Assembly: GCA_000310025.1 (NCBI GenBank)
Contig: FN649735.1
Location: forward strand, 3,320,028 to 3,384,027
Direction of reading: 5' to 3'
Source: Ectocarpus siliculosus
Taxonomy: Eukaryota > Sar > Phaeophyceae > Ectocarpales > Ectocarpaceae
Length of the DNA: 64,000 bases
Positions 2,481-64,000 of this stretch are shown piece after piece. The position numbers were made by a program, and so were the translations under genes. Below the pieces are notes generated by a model that saw nothing but the letters and a program-made list of their open reading frames with translations, was not told the DNA's origin and searched no databases. Position 1 is the first letter of the stretch; each line of letters begins with the position of its first letter.

Positions 2481-2554
2481 TCCGCTCGTCGGTTCACCGG
2501 TGTGGGGTTCCCCCCGAATGTTTCAGGTATCCCAGCGGCATGTGCCTTAACACC

Positions 2555-3490
2555 CGATGCTCGGCAGTTCTATGTACATCGGGCGCGGGTTTTCCCGACT
2601 TTTCGCATCGATTGACGCACACTGCACAAGCGCACACGCAGCAGCAGTGCGGCCTACTCCCTCACGTAGGAACAACAGCTCCGTTTGTCGTAGGTAGTAG
2701 TGGGCCCGGCGCTGCGTTGCGAGTGTCTGTGCTGTGCCATGTTTTCTCGGCTCCCAGCCTGGATAGTTGCATCGTACCGACGATTGCCTTAGCATCCAAT
2801 GCCCGGAAATACATAAATCGGGCGCGGGTTCCGAATCTTTCCCATCGATTAACGCACACTGCACAGGCGCACCCGCAATAGCAGTGCGGCCTACTCCCTC
2901 ACGTAGGAACAACAGCTCCATGGTTGCAAGTAGTAGTGGGCCCGGCGCTGCGTTGCGAGTGTCTGTGCTGTGCCATGTTTTCTCGGCTCTCAGCCTGGAT
3001 AGTTGCATCGTACCGACGATTGCCTTAGCACCCGATGCTCGGATATACATAAATCGGGTGCGGGTTCCGAATCTTTCCAATCGATTAACGCACACTGCAC
3101 AGGCGCACCCGCAATAGCAGTGCGGCCTACTCCCTCACGTAGGAACAACAGCTCCATTTTGCATGTAGTAGTGGGCCCGGCGCTGCGTTGCGAGTGTCTG
3201 TTCTGTGCTATGTTTTCTCGGCTCTCAGCCTGGATAGTTGCATCGTACCGGCGATTGCCTTAGCACCCGATGCTCGGAAATACATAAATCGGGCGAGGTT
3301 CCGATCCTTTCCCATCGATTGACGCACACTGCACAGGCGCACCCGCAATAGCAGTGCGGCCTACTCCCTCACGTAGGAACAACGACTCCGTCGTCGTAGG
3401 TAGTAGTGGGCCCGGCGCTGCGTTGCGCGTGTCTTTTCCTGGGCATGGTTTGTTTGCTCCAGTCTGGATAGTTGCATCGTTTCGGCATTC
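2555..3490. repeat. 236-bp tandem repeat, about four copies
   Basis: The motif GCGGCCTACTCCCTCACGTA begins at 2649, 2886, 3122 and 3356, giving periods of 237, 236 and 234 bp. Copies are highly similar; the last diverges after about 3430. Several antisense and sense frames stay open through the array only because the period is near a multiple of three and copies are alike. No coding function is apparent. Confidence 0.9.
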
Positions 3491-25781: not shown

Positions 25782-25785
25782 ATTG
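25782..25785. repeat. Target-site duplication ATTG (left copy)
   Basis: ATTG directly abuts the LTR; its partner is at 39214-39217. Four bases is within the range for this group, where five is commonest. Intact duplications show the element still sits at its original insertion site. Confidence 0.8.
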
Positions 25786-26086
25786 TGTTATGGAGGAACA
25801 GAGAAATAAAAGAGGGAAGGGAACAAGCTCGTTGCTCCTGGCTTCGGGTACTCACAGTTGTTGTTTGATCTCTTGTTTAGCCTTCTTAGACCACGTCCGC
25901 TCAGCGCCCACTCGGAGAGTGAGGGAGCGGGGCTGGGAATTCGATCTTCCTTCAAGCTACTTCAATACCCCTCAACGTCGCCAAATATCCATATCCAAAG
26001 AAAATTCAAAATATCCAATAAGCGCTCATACAACGTTCGTTCATGAAATGCTCGTGCAATGCAAATACACTAGTTGCTCCATTACA
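25786..26086 (-). repeat. 3' LTR (301 bp)
   Basis: Minus-strand downstream LTR. The sequence just before it on the coding strand (CCCAGGGTGGGCTAA) is only weakly purine-rich, so the polypurine tract is not clear. Confidence 0.95.
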
Positions 26087-26552
26087 TTAGCCCACCCTGG
26101 GAAGTCGTAGATGCAGATACTTTATCTTCAATCCAATACTCAACCTCAAATAAAGATCGAAGATGCGACTTTCCAAATCAGACAAAATAAGATAAAATAA
26201 AAGCAACTAGGGTCGGAGGAAATAATAGTTCATCCCCGACAAATACTCCAAACCATCCCCACACCACGCAGTGATGACTACTGAGAATCACATCGCCAAC
26301 GACGGAACCAATCTGAATCAAAATGGGGTTCGGTCGCGTTGGGCACGCAAAGGTCGGGGTGACTATTGCAACAATGGAAGAAGCTCACACCACCCAAACA
26401 CGCGCTATTAGCATACCACTGCATACGATGTAGAACAAAACAAAAAAAAACATGTAGCGGCCCGTAGGCGGCATTATATCAAAGCACAGATAGATCCAGA
26501 TGGGGCAACAGCCAGCTGTGCCACAACGCCTGGTGTTCGCGACGTAACGCCA

Positions 26553-28580
26553 TCATCCGTGGAGGGATTGGTCAAACCACGAGTACGGTGTTTTTGCAAG
26601 CACCAAGAACCACAAGGAGCATCCAAAAACAAACGTGGAGTAACTATACTCGGGAGAGAAAGCTTTCGAGGGCCGGGGGTGTCCGAAAATCGAACAATGT
26701 ATGTACTGGCCTGTCACGAAATTACTAATCTGCCCAAGCCACCAAAGTCCATCCAAAGCTTTGTACCAAACGTGGGCTCCGACGGGCAAAACAGAAACAG
26801 AGAAGCGAGCCAACCAAATGTCACGCGAAACCAACTCGTACCCAGGAGCAATGAAACGTTCGGCCTGATTCCGAGCAAGTTCTCGGTCGGCCGAAGCTAT
26901 CCGAGCATTGCGATAAGCTCGGTTTCCTTGTACGCGCTGACTAGCGTTATCAGACCAGTAAAGCAGAATGTGTTTTCTGTATTCCTGCAAATCAGACTCC
27001 CTTTCCCACGACGGTGTCAACAAACCAATCCAATGAGTCAGGTACAAGACAGCTACGACACCACCGCGTCCACGTACAATTTGGTGTCCTGAAATATTCT
27101 CAACATCCAGACGACTAGACTCCGCTAAAATATCATCAGCAGTCAAATTATACGGGGGAGACTTGTTACTATACGAGTGCAAAACATATTTTGACAGATT
27201 GGCCGGCCTATACTTAGGCAGGTCATCCGTGTCGTATGGGTTGGTACACGGTTTGCACCGCAAGACGGAGACACGGTTGCGGGATTCTGGTCCCAGCATG
27301 TCTGACGGCAGGTCCAGGTAGAGAAAATTGCGCTCCACAGGTTTTCCATCCGGGGAATCCTCCGCTTTGCCCGGGCCAACAGCAAGAATTTTATACGGTC
27401 CGGTGTAGTTGAGCGAAAGCTTCGCTTTGAGCACCGAATCATCGGTGTGTTTCCGCACACCCTGCCGAATAGTAGCGGCAGAGTTGTAGACCCAAGCCCA
27501 ACCACCAACTTCGTACTTCGGGATCTGACGCAGACCGTCCAACAGTGCAGAGTTACGACGTTCGACGCGCGACACCGTAATCGCATGTTGTTCCCGCACC
27601 AACGCATAAGCTCGCCTCTGGCGTTCAACCGCAAGATTGCAGAAAGCGAGCTGGTCTCGATCCAAACTTTGATGGCCACCCACGCTAGGGTGGTCCAAAA
27701 CAGAAAACGGAAGACGGGGCAACCGTCCAATATGCACTTCATTTGGCGCCAAACCTGTGGCGGTGTTTACCGAGTTGTTGTATGCAAACTCGACATGGGG
27801 AAGATGGACGTCCCAATCGTCCTGACGCTCATTGACCACAACAGCAAGCATTTGAGCGATGGTGTGGTTAACACGCTCGGCTCCACCGTTAGTTTGGGGG
27901 TGGTACGAACTGGTGGTGACTTTCTTGATCTTCATCAGCCCGTAAATAGCCATGGACAACTTGGAACAAAATTTCATACCGTTATCCGAAAGAAGAGTCA
28001 CCGGACAACCCCACAACGCCATGTAGCGGTTGACGAAAATGTTAGCCGTTCCCTTAGCGGTAAATTCCGCCTTGGTAGTGGCATACATATCCGCCCGTCG
28101 ACTGAAACGGTCCGTAAACAAAAGTATATATGCATTCCCACGGGACGTGACCGGCAATGGCCCAAAAAAATCGACGCTCACTACAATACCCGGCGCATTA
28201 GGGAGGGGCAGAGTGAGCGTAGGCCAACGATACGTTTGCCGGGAAGTTTTGCGCGCTTGGCAAATTAAACAACGCCGAAGCCACCAACGAACGGACAAAT
28301 CCATCCCAATCCACCAGAAAAATCGCTCCAACATGCGTAAAGTCCGAGCGGTGCCCAGGTGAAAAGACGCGGTGGCGTGACATGCTTGTAGGACCCAAGG
28401 TCGCAATAGCATAGGCACGTATATGCGCGGAGTCTTCGAAGGCGGGAGGCGAGTGATACGCCCGCCCGAACTACCGAGAGGCAGTGGGGCAGAGTTTCGC
28501 ACCAGCAATCGCGTGCCATCGTCTGAGCGCTTATTTAGATGCGAGGGCGACAACATCAGACAACGCCGGCCGTCGCGCAC
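26553..28580 (-). CDS. pol: Pol: integrase with chromodomain and Tudor-like tail
   Basis: 675 codons open without a stop, though cut off from RNase H by a frameshift. The zinc-binding HHCC is at residues H68, H74, C104 and C107 (CHATASFHLG...CLICQ). Catalytic D137 (VVSVDFFGPLP), D199 (TLLSDNG) and E235 (NGGAERVN) give the exact D,D-35-E spacing of retroviral-type integrases. A GPYKIL motif near residue 395 marks the C-terminal IN domain. Residues 492-545 resemble a chromodomain (HQIVRGRGGVVAVLYLTHW, TPSWERESDL). Residues 599-648 (PVGAHVWYKALDGLWWLGQI) look like a Tudor/SH3-type barrel. Both would help choose insertion sites through histone marks. The last 25 residues are of unknown role. Confidence 0.9.
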   Translation of the reverse strand: MRDGRRCLMLSPSHLNKRSDDGTRLLVRNSAPLPLGSSGGRITRLPPSKTPRIYVPMLLRPWVLQACHATASFHLGTARTLRMLERFFWWIGMDLSVRWWLRRCLICQARKTSRQTYRWPTLTLPLPNAPGIVVSVDFFGPLPVTSRGNAYILLFTDRFSRRADMYATTKAEFTAKGTANIFVNRYMALWGCPVTLLSDNGMKFCSKLSMAIYGLMKIKKVTTSSYHPQTNGGAERVNHTIAQMLAVVVNERQDDWDVHLPHVEFAYNNSVNTATGLAPNEVHIGRLPRLPFSVLDHPSVGGHQSLDRDQLAFCNLAVERQRRAYALVREQHAITVSRVERRNSALLDGLRQIPKYEVGGWAWVYNSAATIRQGVRKHTDDSVLKAKLSLNYTGPYKILAVGPGKAEDSPDGKPVERNFLYLDLPSDMLGPESRNRVSVLRCKPCTNPYDTDDLPKYRPANLSKYVLHSYSNKSPPYNLTADDILAESSRLDVENISGHQIVRGRGGVVAVLYLTHWIGLLTPSWERESDLQEYRKHILLYWSDNASQRVQGNRAYRNARIASADRELARNQAERFIAPGYELVSRDIWLARFSVSVLPVGAHVWYKALDGLWWLGQISNFVTGQYIHCSIFGHPRPSKAFSPEYSYSTFVFGCSLWFLVLAKTPYSWFDQSLHG
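26637..26786 (-). other. Tudor/SH3-like module after the chromodomain
   Basis: The pattern VW.K..DG.WWLG.I....TGQY followed by HPRP resembles Tudor- or PWWP-type barrels. Assignment is from motif shape only. Confidence 0.4.
26945..27107 (-). other. Chromodomain at the integrase C-terminus
   Basis: Contains an aromatic-rich core (VLYLTHWIG, TPSWERE, LLYW), with the W...PSWE arrangement of chromodomains. In chromoviruses this module directs integration to particular chromatin. One of the usual three cage aromatics is not obvious. Confidence 0.65.
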
Positions 28581-29964
28581 AGGGCAAGCAATCCCAGAAT
28601 GTATCCGGCAAAACCGCCGGGGATCCCAAAGACAAAAAATGTATAGCCGCTACACACTCACTTTCTGACAGCTGTTCTCGGGCCCAATCGGCATGCGAGA
28701 ATGTATGCACACAGTCGCGGAGGTGGGCTTCCTCAGCGGCCGTGGGCGGCACCACAGAAGTCGCAGGGCTAGTACCCGCGGGCAACAACACTGGCGGCAT
28801 GGGCGCCGCGGGCGGCGGTGGCGCCGGGGTGGCGGCAGCAGGCGCGGGCGGGGGCGGCTGCAATTCAGCCGGCGCCGAAGAAGGCAGCGGGCCAGAAGTA
28901 GGGCTACCCACGGTTCTCGTAGACCGCGCGGCACGGCTTGACCGGGCCGGCGTTCGAGGAGGTCGCGGCGGTCTGGCCACCACAACGGCCCGTGGTTGTT
29001 TCGGAAAATAATTGGGACGGCTGTGAGCCATGCCCGAGGCCGAATTCGTTCTCGCCCGGGTACGAGAAGAAATCAGAGGGCCACGCGAAAGCGACAGGGC
29101 AGCCGAGGAGGTTCCGACGGTGGACGAGGGAGCGACGTCTGGCTCCGCAGAAACGGAAGCCGGAGGAGGTCCATCGGGCACAGAACCCTCGGGGGCTGCA
29201 TCGCAAACGACAGCGAAAACACCAGGCGGCGAAAATTTCGACGAATCAACTACGGAGGACGGCGACAGAGCCAGCAGGACCATTTGTGGCCCAAAACGGC
29301 GGAAGTCCCCAAAGTCATCCTCCGTCAGGGGCGCGTGTGCCAACGCGTCTCGTTGATCGTCAATGTCAAGCCCACCCAAGCCGATGTTCGGCGTCGAAGT
29401 AGAGTGATAACTCCGTCGGCACGCACGAATGAGATACACGCCCGCGGCGTCATCGACTGCGATACTGGTGTCACCGTGTCTATCCGGGTCGGTTGCCGGC
29501 AAGGGCAACCGCGAAAGAAAATCCGCATTGGCGTTGGCAGTGCCTTTGCGGTAGACAAGGGTGTAATTGAACGAGGAAAGGAACTCGAGCCAACGTTGGA
29601 CGCGGGCGTTGTGTTCACCCACCTTGACGATGCTCTCCAAAGCCTTGTGATCCGAATAAATCAGAAAGTGCGTGGACCAAAAATAACCGCGTAAGCGTTT
29701 AATTGCCCACACGATACTTCCAGCTTCCAAGTCGAGTACTGTCCAGTTGCGCTCGGATTCGAGCGTAGCGCGGCTAACGAACAGAATGGGACGGATGGAA
29801 CCATCGGCCTGTTCCTGTTCAAGGGCCGCACCAAAACCATCGATACAGGCATCACAGCAAAGCCGGAGAGGGCGGCTGCCATCTGCGACAGCGTCCCAAT
29901 CCGGGAAAGCCAAAACCGGAGGTTCTGACAGTTTCGCCAAGAGTTCTTTGACGGTATCCGCCAT
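28531..29964 (-). pseudogene. pol: Pol: RNase H and Pro/Ala-rich linker
   Basis: The first 155 residues are the RNase H domain of Ty3/gypsy type: LAFPDWDAVADGSRPLRL, CDACIDGFGAALEQEQADG (first Asp), TVLDLEAGSIVWAIKRLRGY (Glu) and IYSDHKALESIV (Asp), ending ANADFLSRLPLP. A long low-complexity region with many Pro, Ala and Ser (about 28650-29300) follows, an unusual insert between RNase H and integrase. The frame ends at 28531, about 50 nt past the integrase frame's start; one extra base near 28585 explains the shift. Confidence 0.85.
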
Positions 29965-32235
29965 AGCCGGCGTAAAAACAAAACTTCGCGTCCTTACGCA
30001 AAAGGTCTGTGAGTGGTTTCACTCGCATGGCCAAACCCTTGATGAATTTGCGGTAATACGAAAGCCCACCCAGCAAGGAACGCAGCTTTTTGACGTTGTT
30101 AGGCAGCGGCATTTTTGTGAGGGCTTCGACCTTATCGGCTCGAGGACTAACACCCGCGGGGGAGATTGTGTGACCTAAATAAACAGCCTCCTTAGCGCCG
30201 ACGCGACTCTTGAAAGGAGAAAGCTTGAGGTTGTACTTGCGCAAACGCTCCAAAAACAACCGTATGTTGGCGACATGGTGGGTGGGGTCGGCGTCAAACA
30301 CAATCACATCGTCCAGGTATGCAAGCACATGGTCCAGACCTTTAACCACTTCGTTGATGACCATGGTGAACCACGACGGTGCCACGGAGCTTCCCTGAGG
30401 CATACGGAGCCACTCGAAAAGTTGCGTGGGCGTACAAAACGCCGTAAGCTGAACCGTGTCCTCTTCGACGGTGATTTGGTGGAAAGCGGAGTTAAGATCG
30501 AAAATGGAAAATACCTTGCCCTTGTGCAAGGAATCGATGATGTGGTCAACTCGCGGCTGCGGTTGTTGACCAAGGCTGCACAATTTGTTAAGCTTTTTGT
30601 AGTTCACGGTCAAACGCAGATTGCCGTCCTTCTTAGGCATGACAACCAGAGGGCTCGCCCACGGCGATTGCGAGTGCTGAATAAGACCCGCAGCGAGGTA
30701 TTGATCGAGAATTGCATCGACCTTTTTCTCCACCAGAGGGTTGAGCCTATAGGGACGCGAGGCCAACGGTTTCGTGCCCGGGGGCACTTCCAAACGAAAC
30801 GGTTTCACGGAACAGCAACCGAAATCGGACGGTGACCGCGAAAACACATCCGAAAAGTCACACAGCACATCCGCCAGGCTGTCGATGGCTTCCGGGGTCC
30901 AACCCGAGTCATGTAAATCAAAAGTCACATCGTGCAAATGTGCAGGCAAACGTTGCCACAACTCGCGAAAACTCATTCGCTGCGCTTCTGAGAGGCGTTT
31001 CAACAGATCCGGTGGCGGCGGTTTCGGCGGCAGTGAGGCCGCGGGAGAATCCGAAATCTTCGGATCCGCAACCGGGATGTTTGAATGCAAAGAATTCACG
31101 CGAAACGGCGGCCCATCCGCGGAACGGGCTGGCGGCGGACGGTCACTCAACCCAACGCCCTCGGCCGTCTGTGGTGTAGGATCAATCGACGCAAGCGGAA
31201 TCTGCACAAGTGGGGCAGTCGCCACTCCAAGCACCTCACCTGGTTCCAACTCGGCGCACCCTGTCAATGGGATGTGTTGAGGCCCGTCCGAAACAAACGC
31301 GTCCGACGCCGAGAGGGCGCCGTGTTTCGGTAAAAACGTGACAAGATAGTTGCCGGTGAGAGCGGGGGTGCCAGAGTTGCGATTGAGGTTCACCCTCGTC
31401 AAAGTGGGTTTATCGGAAAGGGAGACACCCTTCCTGCCGGCGTACCGCAGGAAGTAAGATGCCCCGGGGGCGGAGGGTCCAGCGACATACGCGGAAGCTC
31501 CCGCCGCGAAATCCGATGACAGAGAAAGTTTCTCCATAATGCGTCCACTTGCCGACCGCGTGGGCAAAGTAGTGGACAAACAAGAGTTAAAACGCATCCA
31601 GCTATCACGTCTAAGAAGGAGGGCGCGACCCATGGCGGCAGCTGGGACAACATACACCCAGACCGCTAACGAAGCGGTGGCACTATCACCATAAAAAAAT
31701 TGAACGGACAGCCGCACGGATGAGGTGGTTTCAAGGGCATTGCCAGAGCCAAAACCACCCCACTGCCGAACGGGCACCGAACGACGACTATGGACGGATG
31801 CAGCTCCTGACGCCTCCATGGCTTCAAGGAAAGCATCACTAATGAAAGATGAAGGTGAGCCCGAGTCCAACAGGGCTACACCAGGCGCTGTACACACGGC
31901 TCCGGTACCACTATGCACGCGGACTCGCGTCGTAGAGGTATCGCAATCAACTAAAACATCACCGCTCACCAAATCTGGGCCGTGTTCCGCCAATAGCGGC
32001 GGTGGGGAAGCGGCGGCTTCGCGAAATGCAGTCGAGGCAATATGCAGCACCTGTTTCGAGTGGTCCGCGGGCGTGTTGGCTGGCACGTCCAGCGGGCCAC
32101 GCGTGTCCTCGGGCGAGGAATCATTGGCCGAAGAGTCCTCACCTGGGGGCGCAATTTCGTGGATGGTGGGACACACGGGGGCAGGTTGCCCCGAGTGTTC
32201 AGGGCGTAAAGGCTTATTGGGTTCGACCGGGCGCA
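29964..32235 (-). pseudogene. pol: Pol: aspartic protease and reverse transcriptase
   Basis: Continues in the NADAR frame with no stop to 29852. The protease active site is LLDSGSPSSFIS (31861-31875), the DSG signature of retropepsins; a Pro/Ser spacer precedes it. The RT domain runs from about 30810 (FRLEVPPGTKPLASRPYRLN) with AILDQYLAAGLIQHSQSPWA, SPLVVMPKKDGNLRL, FSIFDLNSAF (first catalytic Asp), RMPQGSSVAPSWFTMVINEV and YLDD (30308-30319, catalytic). LGHTISPAGV and LGGLSYYRKFIKGLA are typical Ty3/gypsy motifs. The frame is lost near 29985, where a T run appears one base longer than the coding frame needs; RNase H continues one frame over. All RT catalytic residues are present. Confidence 0.9.
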
Positions 32236-32794
32236 CACGCAGAAGCGTGCGCGTCGCAACAAGCGCTTTGCCCAAAAGGTTTTTACCAGTCCACTTGGAG
32301 GACGACGCCGCACGCGGATCGAAGGCATCAACACCAATGCCCCACAATCCGTCATAAGGACTGGCCTCCGCTATCTGTCTATCGCCTCTAGCCAACAAAC
32401 GTTCACGCGCGTCAGCATTTTGGGCGAATTTTGCACACAAAAGCGAAAAGACAACATTCTCGCGCCGGAATTACCATAGAGCATGATCAAAACCGCGTAC
32501 CTTGCGACCAAGGGACTTGTGTTCTCTCGGGTCGGAGGTAGCCATGATTTTGGCATAAGCGGCATCATCGCCGAAAATGCGGGCTTTCTCCGCCATCATG
32601 AACTGTTCGCCGCACACGTAGCGAATGCCATGAACCGAGAACTCACAGGGCGTCCAGTTAGACAGAAAGGACGGCGGTTTCCAAAAGAGGAAAACCTCAT
32701 CGTTATAGTATTCCCGACAACCGTCAAAAACAGGGGCCTGCCGCGCGGGTGCGCTTACCATCAAGAGAAATGGCACTGGCAACCGGCAGGACAA
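32236..32794 (-). pseudogene. NADAR (YbiA-like) domain in the polyprotein, one stop
   Basis: Lies between Gag and the protease, in the frame of the protease/RT. It covers about 165 residues with NADAR landmarks in order: FWKPPSFLSNW, GEQFMMAEKARIFGD, DPREHKSLGRKVRGFD, a Trp, then after one TAA (32471-32473) KFAQNADARERLLARGD, AEASPYDGLWGIG and WTGKNLLGKALVATR. The acidic residue in GEQFMM and the Asp in ASPYDGLWG sit where the family has conserved active-site residues. NADAR proteins act on ADP-ribose-like N-glycosides: YbiA/RibX in riboflavin pathways, and antitoxin-linked members that remove ADP-ribose from guanine in nucleic acid. The frame overlaps the end of Gag by more than 100 nt in +1 register, so it would be expressed by frameshift as the first part of Pol. 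Apart from the stop, the domain is collinear and unfragmented. Substrate unknown. Confidence 0.85.
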
Positions 32795-35700
32795 TCTGGG
32801 TGCCGCCCGAAGGCGGGCCGGATTGTGGGTGACGAGGAGAGGCAGGCAAGAGCGGTGAACCAGCCGCAGAAGCGTGCGAAACCAAGCGGTCTACGCGGGC
32901 GTTTTCGCGCAAAACGTCGGCGTAGGCCTGTTCATTAAAAGCGGCCTTCATCGCGGGCGCTCGACCAACATGTTCAGCGGCCGCGGGAGGCTCAGGACCG
33001 CTATTTCGTGACAAAGAACATGAACCTTCCGAATTGGGGGAACCGTTACTTGCGCTCGGCAACGACGGTGCAGTCAGCACCGTGCGACGTTGGTGCTCCG
33101 TAGAGGAACGTCGCGAGGGGTCCGGAGGGGGCGCGGTGGGTACAAGCGTACTCGAGCCACCGCGGCGGGCCTGCGGTTGTCCCGAAGGTTCCTGTGCTCC
33201 AACGTGGTTGAGGAGACCACCCGGAGCCGCCGAAACGGTGGGAGAAGCCGGAGCCATGCCTCCGGGGGGCGTAGACATCGAGGCGAGCGTCCGTGAGATA
33301 CCCGAAGTCTGGTCGGCCCCTCGCCCACACCACAAGACTGTATTCGGCGCCGACGAGTCACGTCGGTCATCCAAAACAGGCTGTGATGAGGCGTGAGGCG
33401 ACATCTGAGAAATGAAAGGTTAGGAAACTAACATAGGCGAGCCCGAAGGCGTCTGTGTGATACGAACATCTTGGGAACTAGTCGTACAGCGCACACCCGG
33501 TGCTGTTGACGGCGATGTGTGCAAAAGGCCGTCACCGGCGTGTCAGTTACCCCGCGAGTGCGGGGTTCCGGAACTTCGAGTGTACGGAGTTCCAGGGACG
33601 GCGGCGGGCACCGGGGTCGCGGTGGCGCCTACGGCCGGCGCCGGAGGTGGTGCGTGTGTAGTTGAGTTACGTTTCCCAGAGCGGCGGCCGTCGCCCTGTG
33701 TATGGCCGCTGCTCTTACCCGGGCCATTTTTATTGTGTACACGCGGGCGGTGCGACTTCATGCGGCTTTGCCAACGTTGAAAAACCTGAACGCTATCAGC
33801 ATGCGAAGCAATGGCCGGGTTTAAGAGGCCGGTGTAATTGGTGGAAGCATACGGGCAAGTTTTGAGGCTGTGGCCCGCCTGCCCGCAGTTGAGACATTGG
33901 CCAGAAAATCGCCGCAGAGCTTGCGCTCGGTCGGCAGGGGTCAACAGCGGTGTAAATAAAGGGGGGTCCATCTTAGCCATACTTGCCACAACGCTGTACA
34001 CAAAGCCGTAGTGACCACGCAACGGCCAGCAGTCGTAGTCCTGCTCGAATGGACATGTGTTATCGGACGGCACAGGGTCGATAGCCATCACCCCGGCGGG
34101 AAATTGTGTTCCCGGCGACCACGCGGACGGCTGCAGCGGCAGCGGCGGTGGCGGCCGCTGCTACCCCACGGTCGCAGTCATGGCTCGTGTGGGCGCCGAT
34201 GAAAACCCAGAGGTGACAGTGGTAAAATAACGGTCGCCGTTGCAGGCGGGCGAGTGTTTTAGTGCTTCCTCCGACGACAAAGCATCCCAAAGCTCATCCT
34301 GATCACTAAACACCACGTTGTGAAGAATCTTCTCTTTCAACGGCAAAGACGAGAGAACATTCGGGTACTGCTCCAACAAAGCGTCCCGAAGCGCACGCTG
34401 TACCACGCGCAGATCCGGCGCGAAAGCCCTATGCGAGGCCAACTCCGACATTGCTAACGCCTTAAACTTCGTTACGAATTTGCTGTACGGCGTGCCGTTG
34501 GGCACACCAAAATCCTGCAGCTTGTCGATGCCCCGGTTGAAACCTTTCGGTTCCCACTCATCCGCGAGCAGTTTGAGCAGCCGACGGTATGCCGAAGGCC
34601 CCGTCTTGTCCTTCGTCTCCAAGAAACGTTTCACCTGAGAAAACGAAGAATCCACCAATTCGCGGGTTGCGGCATTGGCGCCTTGAGGGTTCGAAATGGC
34701 CATGAGGACACGCTTGTGAAAGGGGGCATACCATCCAGCCACCCATGAGGGCGACTTGATGGTCTGCTTGCCGGAGGGATCGGCGGCCGACAGGATTTCA
34801 GCCAACACACTTTCGGTCGAACGAGCGAAGGCAGAAAATTCTGCCGGGGGAAGCGGCACTACCGCATACAATTCGTTCACTTTAAGCTTGCCGTATCCTT
34901 TGCGCACGCTGAGGGCGTACGCCTCTGCGGCGGCAACGGCGTTTGCATCAAGCTGTGCCTGCGCGGTGCGTGCACCGGCAGACGACAGGGGCGGTGCCCG
35001 GTCATCAGCGGAATCGCTTGCGGCCGCGTGCACAGCCGGAAGCGGTGGCCTCGCTACCGACACCGCGATAGCCGAGACCGGTGGTTCCTGTGGCAAAACA
35101 CGTTGGGAGAGCGTCGGTACCACCCCAGAAACCTGTGTCGTCTCCGTTTTCACAACGGAGGCGGGGGGCGGTACCTCTGTTTTCACAGCGGCAGATGGTG
35201 TATGCGATGGCAAAGTGGAGGCTACTGACGGTGACTCTGACTTCATTAATGGCACTGGCTGTTGTGGCATCACCGGCGGCTGCGGCACCGGCGGCACCGG
35301 CGGCACCGGCGGCACCAGCGGTACCGGCGGGTGCAGCACCGAGGGCGGCGGCGGCGGCAGCTGCTGCTGCGGCGGCGGCTGCGGCACCGGCGGCCTCGGC
35401 ACCGGTGGCGGCGGCACCGACGATTGCGGCTGCGGCGGCTGCGGCACCGGCGGCTGCGGTACCTGCGGCATCGGCACCGACGGCTGCAGCACCGGCCGCG
35501 GTGGCATCTGCAACGGCGGTACCGGCGGCGACGGCACCGACAGCGGCGACATCGGCGACGGCAGTCTCGACGACGGAACGTCAAAAGCCGCTACCGACGG
35601 CGACGCCGTCGCCGACGGTTGCCGCTGCTGGGGAAAACTCGACAAAGACATGTGATGCAATAGCTGTCGTGCACGTTCTAGCTCAGGCTCGGGGTGGTCA

Positions 35701-38043
35701 ACGATGGGTTGGGTCGCTTTGACCGACGTTTCAGCGATGTGAGGCGGCAAAGAACTGACCGGGGGCATGGCGGCCGCAGACATTTGGGCAGAAGCGACAG
35801 TAATCGGGTCCTGCATTGTCACCGGCCACTGTTGACCCCCAGGACCCATGAACGGCGGCTGCAACGGGTACGGGGTTCCAAGCGCATCTACGACCTACGG
35901 CTGCTGGAAAAACAGTACATTGTGTCCTGCGATACCATACTGTACTTGCCTGCTATTAGTCGGACCATAGTAGGAGAGATGAGTGTGCCCGCCACGGTCA
36001 GAAGCGCCCCCCTCCCCGGCATTCCGGCGGCTACCTCCCCCGTCATTCCGGTGGCTACCCCCGCCGGCACCCGGATGAGCATCCGTGCGTCCGCGGGAGT
36101 CATATCCTCGCGAACAGCCTGCATCCTGCCTGAGGTATTTCTGTGTATGCGGGCGGTCGTGAGTACGAGAGGAATGGTAGGACCCAGCAGACGCAGAAGT
36201 GCCCCACCCGGAATGTTCCGAGGGTTGCCCCCCCATTTGGGAGCGGCGACCCCCCGAGCCCGCCGAACCAGACCTCGAACGTGCAGAAGTGTCCACATCC
36301 TCCCTCGAACGAGCGGAGATGCCCACATCCGCCGCCCGCACACCACGCAGATCAATCACCAGCCGCTCAAGCCGCCGACGTTTCTTGGACGACCAAAGGG
36401 GGCTGTAAAGCAGACATCTAACCGTCTCATCACGCAGAGAAGCTAAATCGAACGAGATCTTGTACACTAGCGCAAGGCCAGCATCCTTCGCTTCAGACGT
36501 CGCAAAGATGCTGGTGTTGACGAACTCGATTAATCCGTCAATGGTGAGACCTAGATGTCTAGTGTCTAGAGAACGAGCCTGGAAATCACCTGCTTCAGAA
36601 GACGATGAAGACGAAGAAGACGAGCTGGACGAAGAGGTGCTCGAAGAGGACGAGCTTGACGAGTTTTTGCGAGGTTTACGCCGTTTCCTGACACGTCCCA
36701 CTGGTCCACCGGCCGAGATGGTAGTGATCTCTGAGGAACTCCGACTGCGAGTCTCCGTGCCTCCCTCTTCAACAGGCATGGTGTTGGTCGCAACCGCAGC
36801 AGCATCACCGTCGAAACCAGTCGTATCGGCCGTATCCACAGCAGCAGAGGCTACTGCAGCCGCAGCAGCATCAGCACTAACAGGCGCAGCATCAGTTGCA
36901 ACAGGCGCGGCAACAAATACAGGATTTGCAACAGCAGACGCATCAGCTACACCTGTCGCAACAGAAGCGGCAACAGGTGCAGCCGCAACAACAGGTGGCG
37001 CGGCAGCTACAGCAGTAGCTGCAGCAGGAGCAGCGGCAGCTGCAACAGGAGCTGCAACGGCAGCAGCAGGAGTTGCAGCAGCAGGAGCTGCAGCAGGAGC
37101 AGCGACAGCTGCAACAGGAGCTGCAACAGCGGCAGCAGTGGCAGCGGCGGCAGCAGCAGAAACTGCAACGGTACCGTCAGAAAGTTCAGGGAAATTTTCT
37201 GCGGCTTGCAAACGTGCTATCTGCTTTTCGAGATCACGGGCCGTCCCAGAGGCAGATGCCATCCATGCCGTGTGCTCACGCTATGCTTCCGCGTCTTCTG
37301 CCAACAACGCGGTGTATCGCTGAGCCTCCAGCCGTTCCTCTTCTTCCCGTGCTTTGCGCAGACGCTCCGATCTGGCACGCGCAGCCGCCTCTGCCAAGGC
37401 AATTGCTTGTTCCAGACGAGCATGGTGCTCGCGAGCTTTTTGTTGGTCAGTCTCTCTGCGAGACGCACGTGCCTCGAGTTCGGCGGTTGAAAGCCGAGGG
37501 ACAGCCACAGCGGCGGGCGGTCTCCTGAGAGACAGCAGCAATCTGACGGGGGATGCCGCCGGAACTAGTACCCTCACTGGCTCCAGGCGACACCGCGGTA
37601 CTCTTACTCGGTGTTCCGAATGGACCCCCAGCGGAGAGAGACAAAGTAGGTGTGCCACCACCATCATTCGTCTCCCTCGGCGCCGGGAGCGTGCCTGCAG
37701 CAGGAGAGCTCCCCTGCTCTCCTGCCGTGACCGGGCTGACAGGCGTGTCAGCCTGAAGGTCCTCCTTCAGTTTCGCCATCGCAGCGGGATCTGCGGTGGT
37801 GTCGAGATCAACCGACATGCGTGCACCCTGTGTTGCGATGGGTGACACATGTGTGTTGTCCCCAGGGGGAAAAGCAGACGACAGAACAGCAGCAGCGGCA
37901 TCGTCCGCAATAGGAAAAGAGGACGGCGATACAACATCATCAGCGGGCGAGTCACTGATCGAGTGACTGGTCGAGACCCAATCGAGTAGAGAGTGCCGGC
38001 CCTTGCCATCCAAACTCTTCAAAGCAGCGAGGGCAAAAGGCAT
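32724..38043 (-). pseudogene. gag: Gag region of the gypsy element, interrupted
   Basis: Begins with Met at 38043 (MPFALAALKSLDGKGRHSLL). A frame change near 37500 leads into a frame that stays open to 32724 except for single stops at 37281 (TAG), 35895 (TAG), 34161 (TAG), 33543 (TGA) and 33420 (TAA). In order: acidic Ser/Pro N-terminus; a charged coiled coil (37290-37460, with KAREHHARLEQAIALAEAAA); a long Ala/Val/Pro tract (36810-37180); a poly-Ser run (36595-36665); an Arg/Gly/Ser-rich part; a Pro-Gln tract (35250-35600); a capsid-like helical region (34170-34950, including FVTKFKALAMSELASHRAFA); a zinc knuckle CLNCGQAGHSLKTC (C-X2-C-X4-H-X4-C, about 33885-33930); and a basic Pro/Ser tail. 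The capsid and knuckle fit a nucleocapsid role. The size is exceptional for Gag. Confidence 0.8.
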
Positions 38044-38884
38044 GAGCTGATCTTGAAAACACCAAATGCACGATGCAGCAGAAACAAAATCCAGAAAGAA
38101 AAATCGTGATGCGAATGCGAAGAGCGAATTTTTTCGCCCGACAAAGTGGCCGTGCGCGGCCTTCTCTTCGATCGACCGGCCTTAACAAAACCGCGGTTCA
38201 GCAGACGTAACACACGGTCCGAAACCGGTGCCGGCAGAATGTCCTCCGGCCACAAATCGGTGGAGACAAGCCCCCGATCGAAATGCTCAATACGTCACCT
38301 TTTTCGCGAATTTCTGAAATCCCTGTGAACGATTGTGCAAACGAGCGCAACCCACTACAACCAGACGGCAGCAGATCATGCCAACAAAGCGGCCATTCAG
38401 CAGCCTGTCGCCGCCATGCGGGGGGGTAGCCAAGCGCGTGAGAAGCGTAAGGATTTCCCCCGAAAGCAGGCAGAAAGGTGTCGTCTTGGGAGCAAAGGGG
38501 CATGCCTTTTGTAACATGCACGTCATGCACAAGGTCGAAGCATTCATGGATGGAGAGCAATCCTACGCGAGCATGCTTGCCGAGCAAATGAGGAAAGAAA
38601 GGCCAGCGTCCACCAAGCCGTCCCTTGGTGAACACAAAGCCATGCAAGGGGAAGCCCTCGCGCATGAGGCCTGTACGCCCGTCGCGCGCACAACCGGAGC
38701 AAACACCCGTCGCGCACACGACCGGAGCAAACGCCCACACGTCAAAACAAAAAGTGCCCCACCGAGTGAGTCAGAGAGAGCAAAAACCGTGCCCTCTCTA
38801 AAACCAGGTAACTAAAAAAAATCGAGAGGACTAAAATGCGAGACGTTCACGCGAACGATGAGCACCGAAGCGAAGGACCGGTGT
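38044..38884 (-). other. Leader of the gypsy element
   Basis: About 840 bp between the primer-binding site and the first Gag Met. Contains short tandem repeats at 38670-38735 (CCCGTCGCGC...ACCGGAGCAAAC, two to three copies). Frames of 160-180 codons are open on both strands here; neither shows a recognisable domain, so they are left unannotated. Confidence 0.5.
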
Positions 38885-38904
38885 CCAAATGCCAGACGAC
38901 GCCA
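38885..38904 (-). promoter_or_regulatory. Putative tRNA primer-binding site
   Basis: Starts TGGCGTCGTCTGGC three bases inside the 5' LTR on the coding strand. The leading TGG pairs with a tRNA CCA end. The primer tRNA could not be identified by eye. Confidence 0.5.
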
Positions 38905-38907
38905 CAA

Positions 38908-39213
38908 TGTTATGGAGGAACAGAGAAATAAAAGAGAGAAGGGAACAAGCTCGTTGCTCCTGGCTTCGGGTACTCACAGTTGTTGTTTGATCTCTTGTTT
39001 AGCCTTCTTAGACCAGGTCCGCTCAGCGCCCACTCGGAGAGTGAGGGAGCGGGGCTGGGAATTCGATCTTCCTTCAAGCTACTTCAATACCCCTCAACGT
39101 CGCCAAATATCCATATCCAAAGAAAATTCAAAATATCCAATACGCGCTCATACAACGTTCGTTCATGAAACGCTCGTACAATGCAAATACACTATAATAG
39201 TTGCTCCATTACA
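38908..39213 (-). repeat. 5' LTR (306 bp)
   Basis: Minus-strand upstream LTR. Matches 25786-26086 except for five substitutions and a 5-bp TAATA insertion near 39195. The inner edge ends ...CCATAACA and the outer edge begins TGTAATGG on the coding strand. Confidence 0.95.
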
Positions 39214-39217
39214 ATTG
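39214..39217. repeat. Target-site duplication ATTG (right copy)
   Basis: Immediately follows the outer LTR end and matches 25782-25785. Confidence 0.8.
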
Positions 39218-62569: not shown

Positions 62570-64000
62570 TTACAAGGGAAAATAACCATGAGCGCTACAT
62601 ATATAAAGGCAAATACTGTGCATCAAGCAACAACTGTTCGGCGACATGTAGCCCACATCGTCGGATACTGACGAGGTGCGCCCGAGGTCGCCGGTTGGAA
62701 TCCCCCGTCCGCACTGTGATTTGTTCCTTATTTTCCTGGTTTTCGACATGTTTTTTATGCATGTTGTATTCTTTTCAACTCCACGGAATTTCCAGGGAAT
62801 TCCATGGAATACCACGGAGGTTCCATGGAGTTCCACAGTATTCCATGGAAACCATGGCAAGCCATGAAATGCCACAGAATATTCTATGGCAAATTCCACG
62901 GCAAGTCCCCTGGCAAATTCCACGGAATATTCCGTGGACTCCACCGCCACGGAACTCCATGGAGGTCCATGGAACTCCACGGAATATTCTATGGCATTCC
63001 ATGGAGTTCCATGGAATTGACAAATATTGTAGGGCACCCCCAGCGTATTATTCCAAGTACGACTGGCTGTGCGTAAACCGTAAACTGCTTGTTTCAGTTT
63101 CATGACTAGAGGGTTGCCTGGGCTTGGCCCTGGTACTTCATAGCCGCCAGCCTGTATGCAAAACGTTGGCTGGTCGATGGGGCTTTGGAGAAAAGCACTG
63201 CGTACGTAACACATGGGGACATCCCAATCGAATTGGGTCGCAATGGCTAGTAGTACCCGTATGTTCTCGACGCGACATACTGGTGCGAAGGTGGCTCCGC
63301 AGTCAATTCCTGGCCGTTGGCTCCAACCTTGACATACTATTCTGGCTTTAAAAGTGTAATCACTTTTGACTTTGAACACCCATCGGGTTCCGATCACTTT
63401 ACGGGTTGAAGGAACAGCGGATCTTGGAATGAGATCATACACTTCATTTTCTTTCAATCGTTCCATTTCTTTATCCATGACTTTCGCCCACATTTTTGCT
63501 TTTGGGGATGCTTGCGCTTCTGCGAACGTGTTCGGCAGCGATATGCTAGCTGGATCTGGATTCGATTGAACTTCCGTCTGGGATGTATATGTGTATGAAA
63601 CGATCTGTGGATACAGTGTCTCGTGTGCATAGTCAGCGCTTGGTGATGGATTGTAACTTCGCAGACTTTGTAGTTCCCGCGATGTTCTGTCGTTTACGCT
63701 TGTTCTGATGTTTTCTTGGGCTGGTCCGGATGATCTTGTTCGTCTTGGTATACCGGCGTACTGCCGTTGTTCTGGAGTTGGCGATTGAGTCCGTAATGAA
63801 CTTGGCGGAATATCAGCATCATCTTGTAAGGAATTGCCAAAAGAGTAATCAGATGGGGTTGTAGGCGGACTACTTTCCCTTTCTGAATTTGGTGATGGTT
63901 CGGAGTTTCGAATGTCGACCAAATGATTCGGAATGTTTGGTGATTGTTGAATATCGTCGCTCGATTTAGCGTGAAATATGGAGAGATGATCAAGGACATC
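62570..64000 (-). pseudogene. pol: Ty1/copia pol, RT region, truncated (runs off window)
   Basis: Minus-strand frame open from the window edge (64000) to 62570. A Ser/Pro-rich part is followed by the copia RT N-terminus: AKVMDKEMERLKENEVYDLI (about 63480), VIGTRWVFKVK, FKARIVCQGWSQRPGIDC, TFAPVCRVENIRVLLAIATQ, SAFLQSPID, KLKQAVYGLRTASRTWN. The catalytic DD motif that should follow is missing: at about 63020 the frame passes directly into the CCATGG minisatellite, read as repeated FHG.PW units. So the RT is truncated and this copy is inactive. RNase H and LTR are not in the window, and the protease and integrase would lie beyond 64000. Confidence 0.85.
62776..63020. repeat. CCATGG-based palindromic minisatellite
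   Basis: About 245 bases built from 10-12-bp variants of ATTCCATGGAAT, such as GGAATTCCATGGAATACC, GAGTTCCACGG and GGAATATTCTATGGC. The core is self-complementary, so both strands carry the same motif and stay open in several frames. Confidence 0.9.

Follow-up and report, generated by a model that had tools for sequence, protein, structure and literature searches.

A NADAR domain built into a Ty3/gypsy retrotransposon is already known. It was reported in 2025 (PMC12477816), and as described there Gypsy-12_Ec32 is a Ty3/gypsy element whose Pol begins with a YbiA-type NADAR and that occurs as several families in one genome. The element described here shares these features and lies in a 64,000-nucleotide window of the brown alga Ectocarpus siliculosus (contig FN649735.1, positions 3,320,028 to 3,384,027; G000:C10:3320028-3384027 in our numbering of an assembly of 189 Mb and 492 contigs). 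At the integrase C-terminus the published element, by its description, has a chromodomain and ours a possible one, with a sub-threshold match to Chromo (12.2 bits, E 0.18, cut-off 25.1; 26955..27104, minus strand). A first-pass annotation of the window, drawn from its letters, could not say whether such a fusion had been described; the 2025 report answers that, and among the papers listed, as judged by titles and the starts of abstracts, no other one dealt with this NADAR-retroelement fusion. To the published fusion we add selection on the domain, close kinship to the alga's own gene, and a likely leaky stop codon upstream.

Other described systems resemble the element in part. The dUTPase of beta-retroviruses is also a small enzyme between nucleocapsid and protease, although enzyme and substrate are unrelated and it is made as a trans-frame protein (PMC4531489). 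DNA methyltransferases in dinoflagellate and charophyte retrotransposons are likewise host-type nucleic-acid enzymes within a coding region, but the enzyme is another and so are the elements (PMC5890265), while ORF1 of a Tx1 LINE from Crassostrea gigas, as cited in PMC12477816, also carries a NADAR, but in a non-LTR (long terminal repeat) element. Among NADARs themselves, those of Phytophthora nicotianae (8bau) and Escherichia coli (YbiA, 2b3w) stand outside any retroelement polyprotein and differ from the element at Y84, which is F in the latter. The DarT1-NADAR toxin-antitoxin pair (BC4488 subfamily, PMC11543638) would have in common with the element a NADAR chemistry on ADP-ribosylated guanine, if the element's domain is active. 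That antitoxin has an aspartate at the E125 position, whereas the element has glutamate, and a profile search of the genome, which reads exon by exon and may miss genes, returned no match to DarT (PF14487); neither the catalytic aspartate nor the DarT partner of such a system was thus found.

The explanation that we favour, at about even confidence, is that the NADAR is a selected and probably working part of Gag-Pol, a packaged sanitising hydrolase that would strip ADP-ribose or a related group. The domain itself (32237..32686, minus strand; G000:C10:3352264-3352713) matches PF08719 at 154.7 bits (cut-off 35.1, E 3.1e-43), and structure prediction gives a confident model of the NADAR fold. 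The annotation had proposed a full-length NADAR in the frame of the protease and reverse transcriptase; its presence and frame are borne out and profile positions 2-163 are covered, but one in-frame TAA interrupts the window copy, and each open reading frame half scores 64.7 bits. Across 41 copies of the element the glutamate at the E125 position, as well as E43 and K50, is invariant, residues whose roles we take from PMC11543638. By these sequence features the domain belongs to the NADAR superfamily and its YbiA subfamily. Its closest solved relative is 8bau, at 30-32% identity, for which hydrolysis of guanine-ADP-ribose in DNA is reported (PMC11543638), and action of the element's NADAR on ADP-ribosylated nucleic acid is plausible.

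The fusion is not the one-off capture that would have undercut the annotation. A search of the genome for NADAR gave at least 150 matches (150 scored of 230 candidates), and our copy set comprises the 40 best-scoring places, which were fetched, together with the window copy; L001-L008 duplicate fetched copies and are left out of all counts. A protease follows the NADAR in 40 of the 40 fetched places, and a reverse transcriptase lies within the fetched piece in all but two of them (38/40; the exceptions are L034 and L041). The 41 copies make up five families (4, 11, 12, 8 and 6 copies), whose representatives share 53-67% amino-acid identity. When the window's reverse transcriptase was searched for in turn, and the 150 matches listed of 427 candidates were compared with 157 NADAR places, 126 of the 150 had a same-strand NADAR upstream, at a spacing of 1.8-2.4 kb in 122 cases; the two control positions held no NADAR. 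Copy L042 shares 91% and 94% identity with the NADARs of P0122 and P0121, which are element proteins from Ectocarpus sp. CCAP 1310/34. Two NADAR matches, G000:C3:3913787-3914242 and C489:435177-435536, are reported within frames far longer than Gag-Pol, of 10,887 and 6,365 amino acids.

Presence across families is accompanied by selection, and the NADAR is, as the annotation had it, part of Gag-Pol. The comparison kept 38 of 40 NADAR pieces that were stop-free and long enough, along with 32 protease, 33 reverse transcriptase, 31 RNase H and 29 integrase pieces, and the contrast between NADAR and the linker upstream drew on 20 in-frame copies of families 1-4. The domain is kept by selection within Gag-Pol at distances where silent sites are saturated, and the catalytic residues of the active site are invariant in all 41 copies while the linker drifts.

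The junction upstream offers a route by which such a domain could be expressed. Gag and Pol share one frame in all five families and are separated by a TGA followed by C, and this TGA-C is present in 36 of 36 aligned junctions (the other five of the 41 copies failed to align there and are not counted; five of the copies supplied the probes). The frame is kept from the TGA to the NADAR in 25 of the 36, with no further stop in 20 of those 25, and 11 are frame-shifted. The window junction equals its family probe at 57 of 57 bases, with the TGA followed by CACGCCGGT, and its UGA (33543..33545, minus strand), which ends the open reading frame 33543-34091, is the proposed readthrough site; in this copy the Gag stop and the NADAR are in different frames. 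The NADAR starts 274-430 codons past the TGA in five reference copies, and no in-frame methionine follows the stop for 220 codons in family 3 and 353-386 codons in family 4. An SQDxR motif lies 23-24 codons past the stop in families 1-4, ahead of any in-frame methionine in families 1, 3 and 4, while in family 0 these letters stand upstream of the stop; codon statistics from the stop to the first methionine are mixed. UGA-C is a leaky stop context. The pattern at the junction fits stop-codon readthrough, which is known for murine leukaemia virus (PMC5009743). Because of this proposed readthrough of the Gag UGA, the NADAR would be made at the level of Pol. The main text of PMC12477816 contains none of the terms 'readthrough', 'stop codon' and 'frameshift', and none of the papers listed in searches on such readthrough names a case in brown algae.

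We infer that a minority of ribosomes read past the Gag UGA-C, yielding a product in which Gag, a low-complexity linker, NADAR, protease, reverse transcriptase, RNase H and integrase follow one another. The NADAR would enter the particle alongside the other Pol enzymes and then be freed by the protease. As a YbiA-type N-glycosidase it would take ADP-ribose, or a related NAD-derived group, off bases, guanine above all, with the element's RNA or cDNA as substrate, or it would rid the surroundings of reverse transcription of such compounds. It would then be a sanitising enzyme at the place where beta-retroviruses have their dUTPase; the NADAR has that same position and probably a Pol-level dose. 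Other family members hydrolyse guanine ADP-ribose according to PMC11543638 and PMC11125620, and for NADARs within RNA-virus polyproteins macromolecules are the main substrates proposed (PMC9503650).

Several observations weigh against this explanation. Y84 is replaced by F in 41 of 41 copies, the D86 position is not conserved among them, and among 17 retroelement rows, four of which are public proteins, E43 is D in one and R93 is H in one. K75 is no pointer to DNA in particular, because lysine is also found there in 126 of the 129 other NADARs compared. RNase H (pN 0.16-0.24) and integrase (pN 0.14-0.27) evolve more slowly than the domain, and family 2 lacks the contrast between NADAR and linker (ratios 0.76 and 0.56). 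For 24 of the 150 listed reverse transcriptase matches no NADAR was found among the matches listed, nor among those listed in two further searches; these may be truncated, lie at contig ends or be true losses. One of them sits in an open frame of 1,802 amino acids, and some relatives of the element may lack the domain. Conversely, 31 of the 157 NADAR places have no reverse transcriptase among the matches listed. At the junction, 15 folds, computed without pseudoknots, gave no convincing RNA structure past the UGA (z -2.1 to +0.8). For Tca2, which also has an in-frame UGA, PMC2194720 reports that yeast showed no readthrough of it.

Among other functions for the NADAR, the likeliest, though we consider it improbable, is that its substrates near the particle are soluble ADP-ribose derivatives, NAD products or riboflavin-pathway intermediates, and not nucleic acid. 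Riboflavin intermediates are substrates of bacterial and plant relatives (PMC11543638, PMC11125620), and for phage NADARs a role on low-molecular ADP-ribose derivatives has been put forward (PMC9503650); yet for NADARs in RNA-virus polyproteins the latter source proposes mainly macromolecular substrates, and the host's own NADAR gene could handle free metabolites. We regard it as quite unlikely that the domain acts, ahead of reverse transcription, on the cap region of the genomic RNA or on its NAD-derived caps. In two protein clusters, P0128 (1,167 aa) and P0130 (1,165 aa), NADAR is fused to mRNA guanylyl- and methyltransferase domains, the nematode NADAR protein SNA-3 interacts with the cap-binding complex (PMC9303266), and a role in RNA processing is also suggested by Dinatale et al. 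(PMC12477816). This is an association only, however, and the NADARs of the capping enzymes are placed elsewhere in the tree. A purely structural use of the fold, for binding or spacing with no catalysis, is made very unlikely by catalytic residues that stay invariant beside a drifting linker.

The element's NADAR has its immediate kin, by the trees, in the algae's own gene, in whichever direction the domain moved. The L042 NADAR, searched against 5.8 billion proteins, had 287 matches, and the 120 of them that were listed include free-standing NADAR proteins of 227-252 aa named Ectocarpus, Pylaiella and Scytosiphon. The host cellular gene lies at C24:2125206-2127066 in four exon-sized pieces, with introns within the NADAR, and three of its exon matches have 84%, 90% and 95% identity to P0004 of Ectocarpus sp. 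13 AM-2016; together with the identities of L042 to P0122 and P0121, these values by themselves point to Ectocarpus or a near relative as host. Esi0017_0056, an Ectocarpus protein with this domain that may be the product of the cellular gene or come from an element, is stress-induced (PMC7922944). The host gene (L055, G000:C24:2125100-2127120) also has an N-terminal Cys/His-rich motif, CKLPGCSRPC..HDYCGVTH, perhaps a zinc finger, a similar form of which is common to P0004, P0005, P0007 and P0009.

From the protein set, 146 of 154 sequences with most of the domain present were kept, and three trees of 95, 34 and 87 rows were built. In all three, a cellular algal clade and two retroelement clades form one group, with support of 94 (SH-aLRT), 86/92 (bootstrap/SH-aLRT) and 92 (SH-aLRT), respectively. 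No row named bacterial, fungal or viral falls inside this group, and four metagenome proteins without a name do; the nearest named bacteria are Myxococcota. As to the monophyly of retroelement NADARs, for which the annotation had proposed a tree, there are two retroelement clades, and a single one is not rejected (p-AU 0.445, 34-row tree). Dinatale et al. (PMC12477816) suggest bacterial transfer from blastp hits, and our trees would push any such transfer further back in time. The open fork among the two retroelement clades and the cellular clade would also allow the host gene to derive from the element by domestication, and not the element to have taken up a host-type gene, an origin that we hold to be somewhat improbable: the cellular gene has introns inside the NADAR, and similar free-standing proteins occur in other genera of Ectocarpales.

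Retroelements seem to have acquired a NADAR on more than one occasion, because the NADARs of three metagenomic proteins, P0129, P0132 and P0133, form a separate and strongly supported group in the 95-row tree. In these proteins (924, 1066 and 1177 aa) the NADAR is followed by reverse transcriptase/RNase H unlike Gypsy, with weak matches to the Pfam profiles RVT_1 or RT_RNaseH; by eye, from motifs, we take their reverse transcriptases to be DIRS/Ngaro-like. P0134 starts inside the NADAR. Other fusions link NADAR to viral RNA polymerase, fungal HET domains, PARG and ADP-ribosylglycohydrolase, and ASCH (P0154, P0151-P0153, P0140, P0147). P0128 and P0130 have a C-terminal NADAR behind mRNA capping and cap methyltransferase domains; we judge them giant-virus-like by architecture, and they had no match in viral_contigs.

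The remainder of the element is that of a whole Ty3/gypsy retrotransposon of 13.4 kb (25786..39213, coding on the minus strand), delimited by a self-BLAST LTR pair, its ends, a target duplication and the Gypsy domain order. The LTRs and target duplications are intact, as first annotated: the 5' LTR (306 bp, 38908..39213) and 3' LTR (301 bp, 25786..26086), both on the minus strand, are 96.7% identical with TG..CA ends, and ATTG stands on either side (25782..25785 and 39214..39217, no strand). All internal features are on the minus strand. A Gag-like open reading frame (34161..35864), assigned by position, had no match in a Pfam scan, and is followed by a Gag C-terminal frame (33543..34091) with a CX2CX4HX4C zinc knuckle (zf-CCHC 13.3 bits, below the cut-off). 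The low-complexity linker (32741..33542) leads from the Gag stop to the NADAR, beyond which lie the aspartic protease (31820..31939; a DSG motif in the frame 29852-32440, RVP_2 14.9 bits, below the cut-off of 20.3), reverse transcriptase (30164..30637; RVT_1 109.6 bits), RNase H (29569..29877; RT_RNaseH 100.5 bits) and integrase (27897..28418; H2C2 zinc finger and rve core, 54.7 and 33.7 bits). Both this order, with a sub-threshold profile match for the protease, and the LTRs, with their TG..CA ends and short target duplication, are those of Ty3/gypsy elements (Metaviridae). Elsewhere the window holds a Copia-type reverse transcriptase fragment (RVT_2 103.6 bits; 62570-63922, minus strand) and a tandem repeat of a 236-bp unit (2543-3480; 4 copies, 90% matches).

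The step from a packaged hydrolase to a host defence is weaker. The annotation took the domain to imply that the host defends itself by ADP-ribosylating nucleic acids, which the genome does not support: the exon-by-exon search that returned no DarT, and that may miss genes, also gave no KptA, four exon-sized PARP matches and one Macro match. That brown algae mark guanine in retroelement RNA or cDNA with ADP-ribose or another NAD-derived group as a defence inside the cell, that a whole Gypsy lineage survives by packaging an eraser kin to the host NADAR, and that NADARs in unrelated retroelement and viral replication proteins are convergent answers to this defence is a scenario we find doubtful.

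Overall, this work turns a published fusion whose meaning was open into a testable case, in which a domain of known chemistry is selected within Gag-Pol and is kin to a host gene. The in-frame UGA at the Gag-Pol junction is a candidate readthrough signal for stramenopiles. If the NADAR does erase ADP-ribose from the element's nucleic acid, some eukaryote must add it, and ADP-ribosylation of nucleic acids would count as one more means of transposon control.
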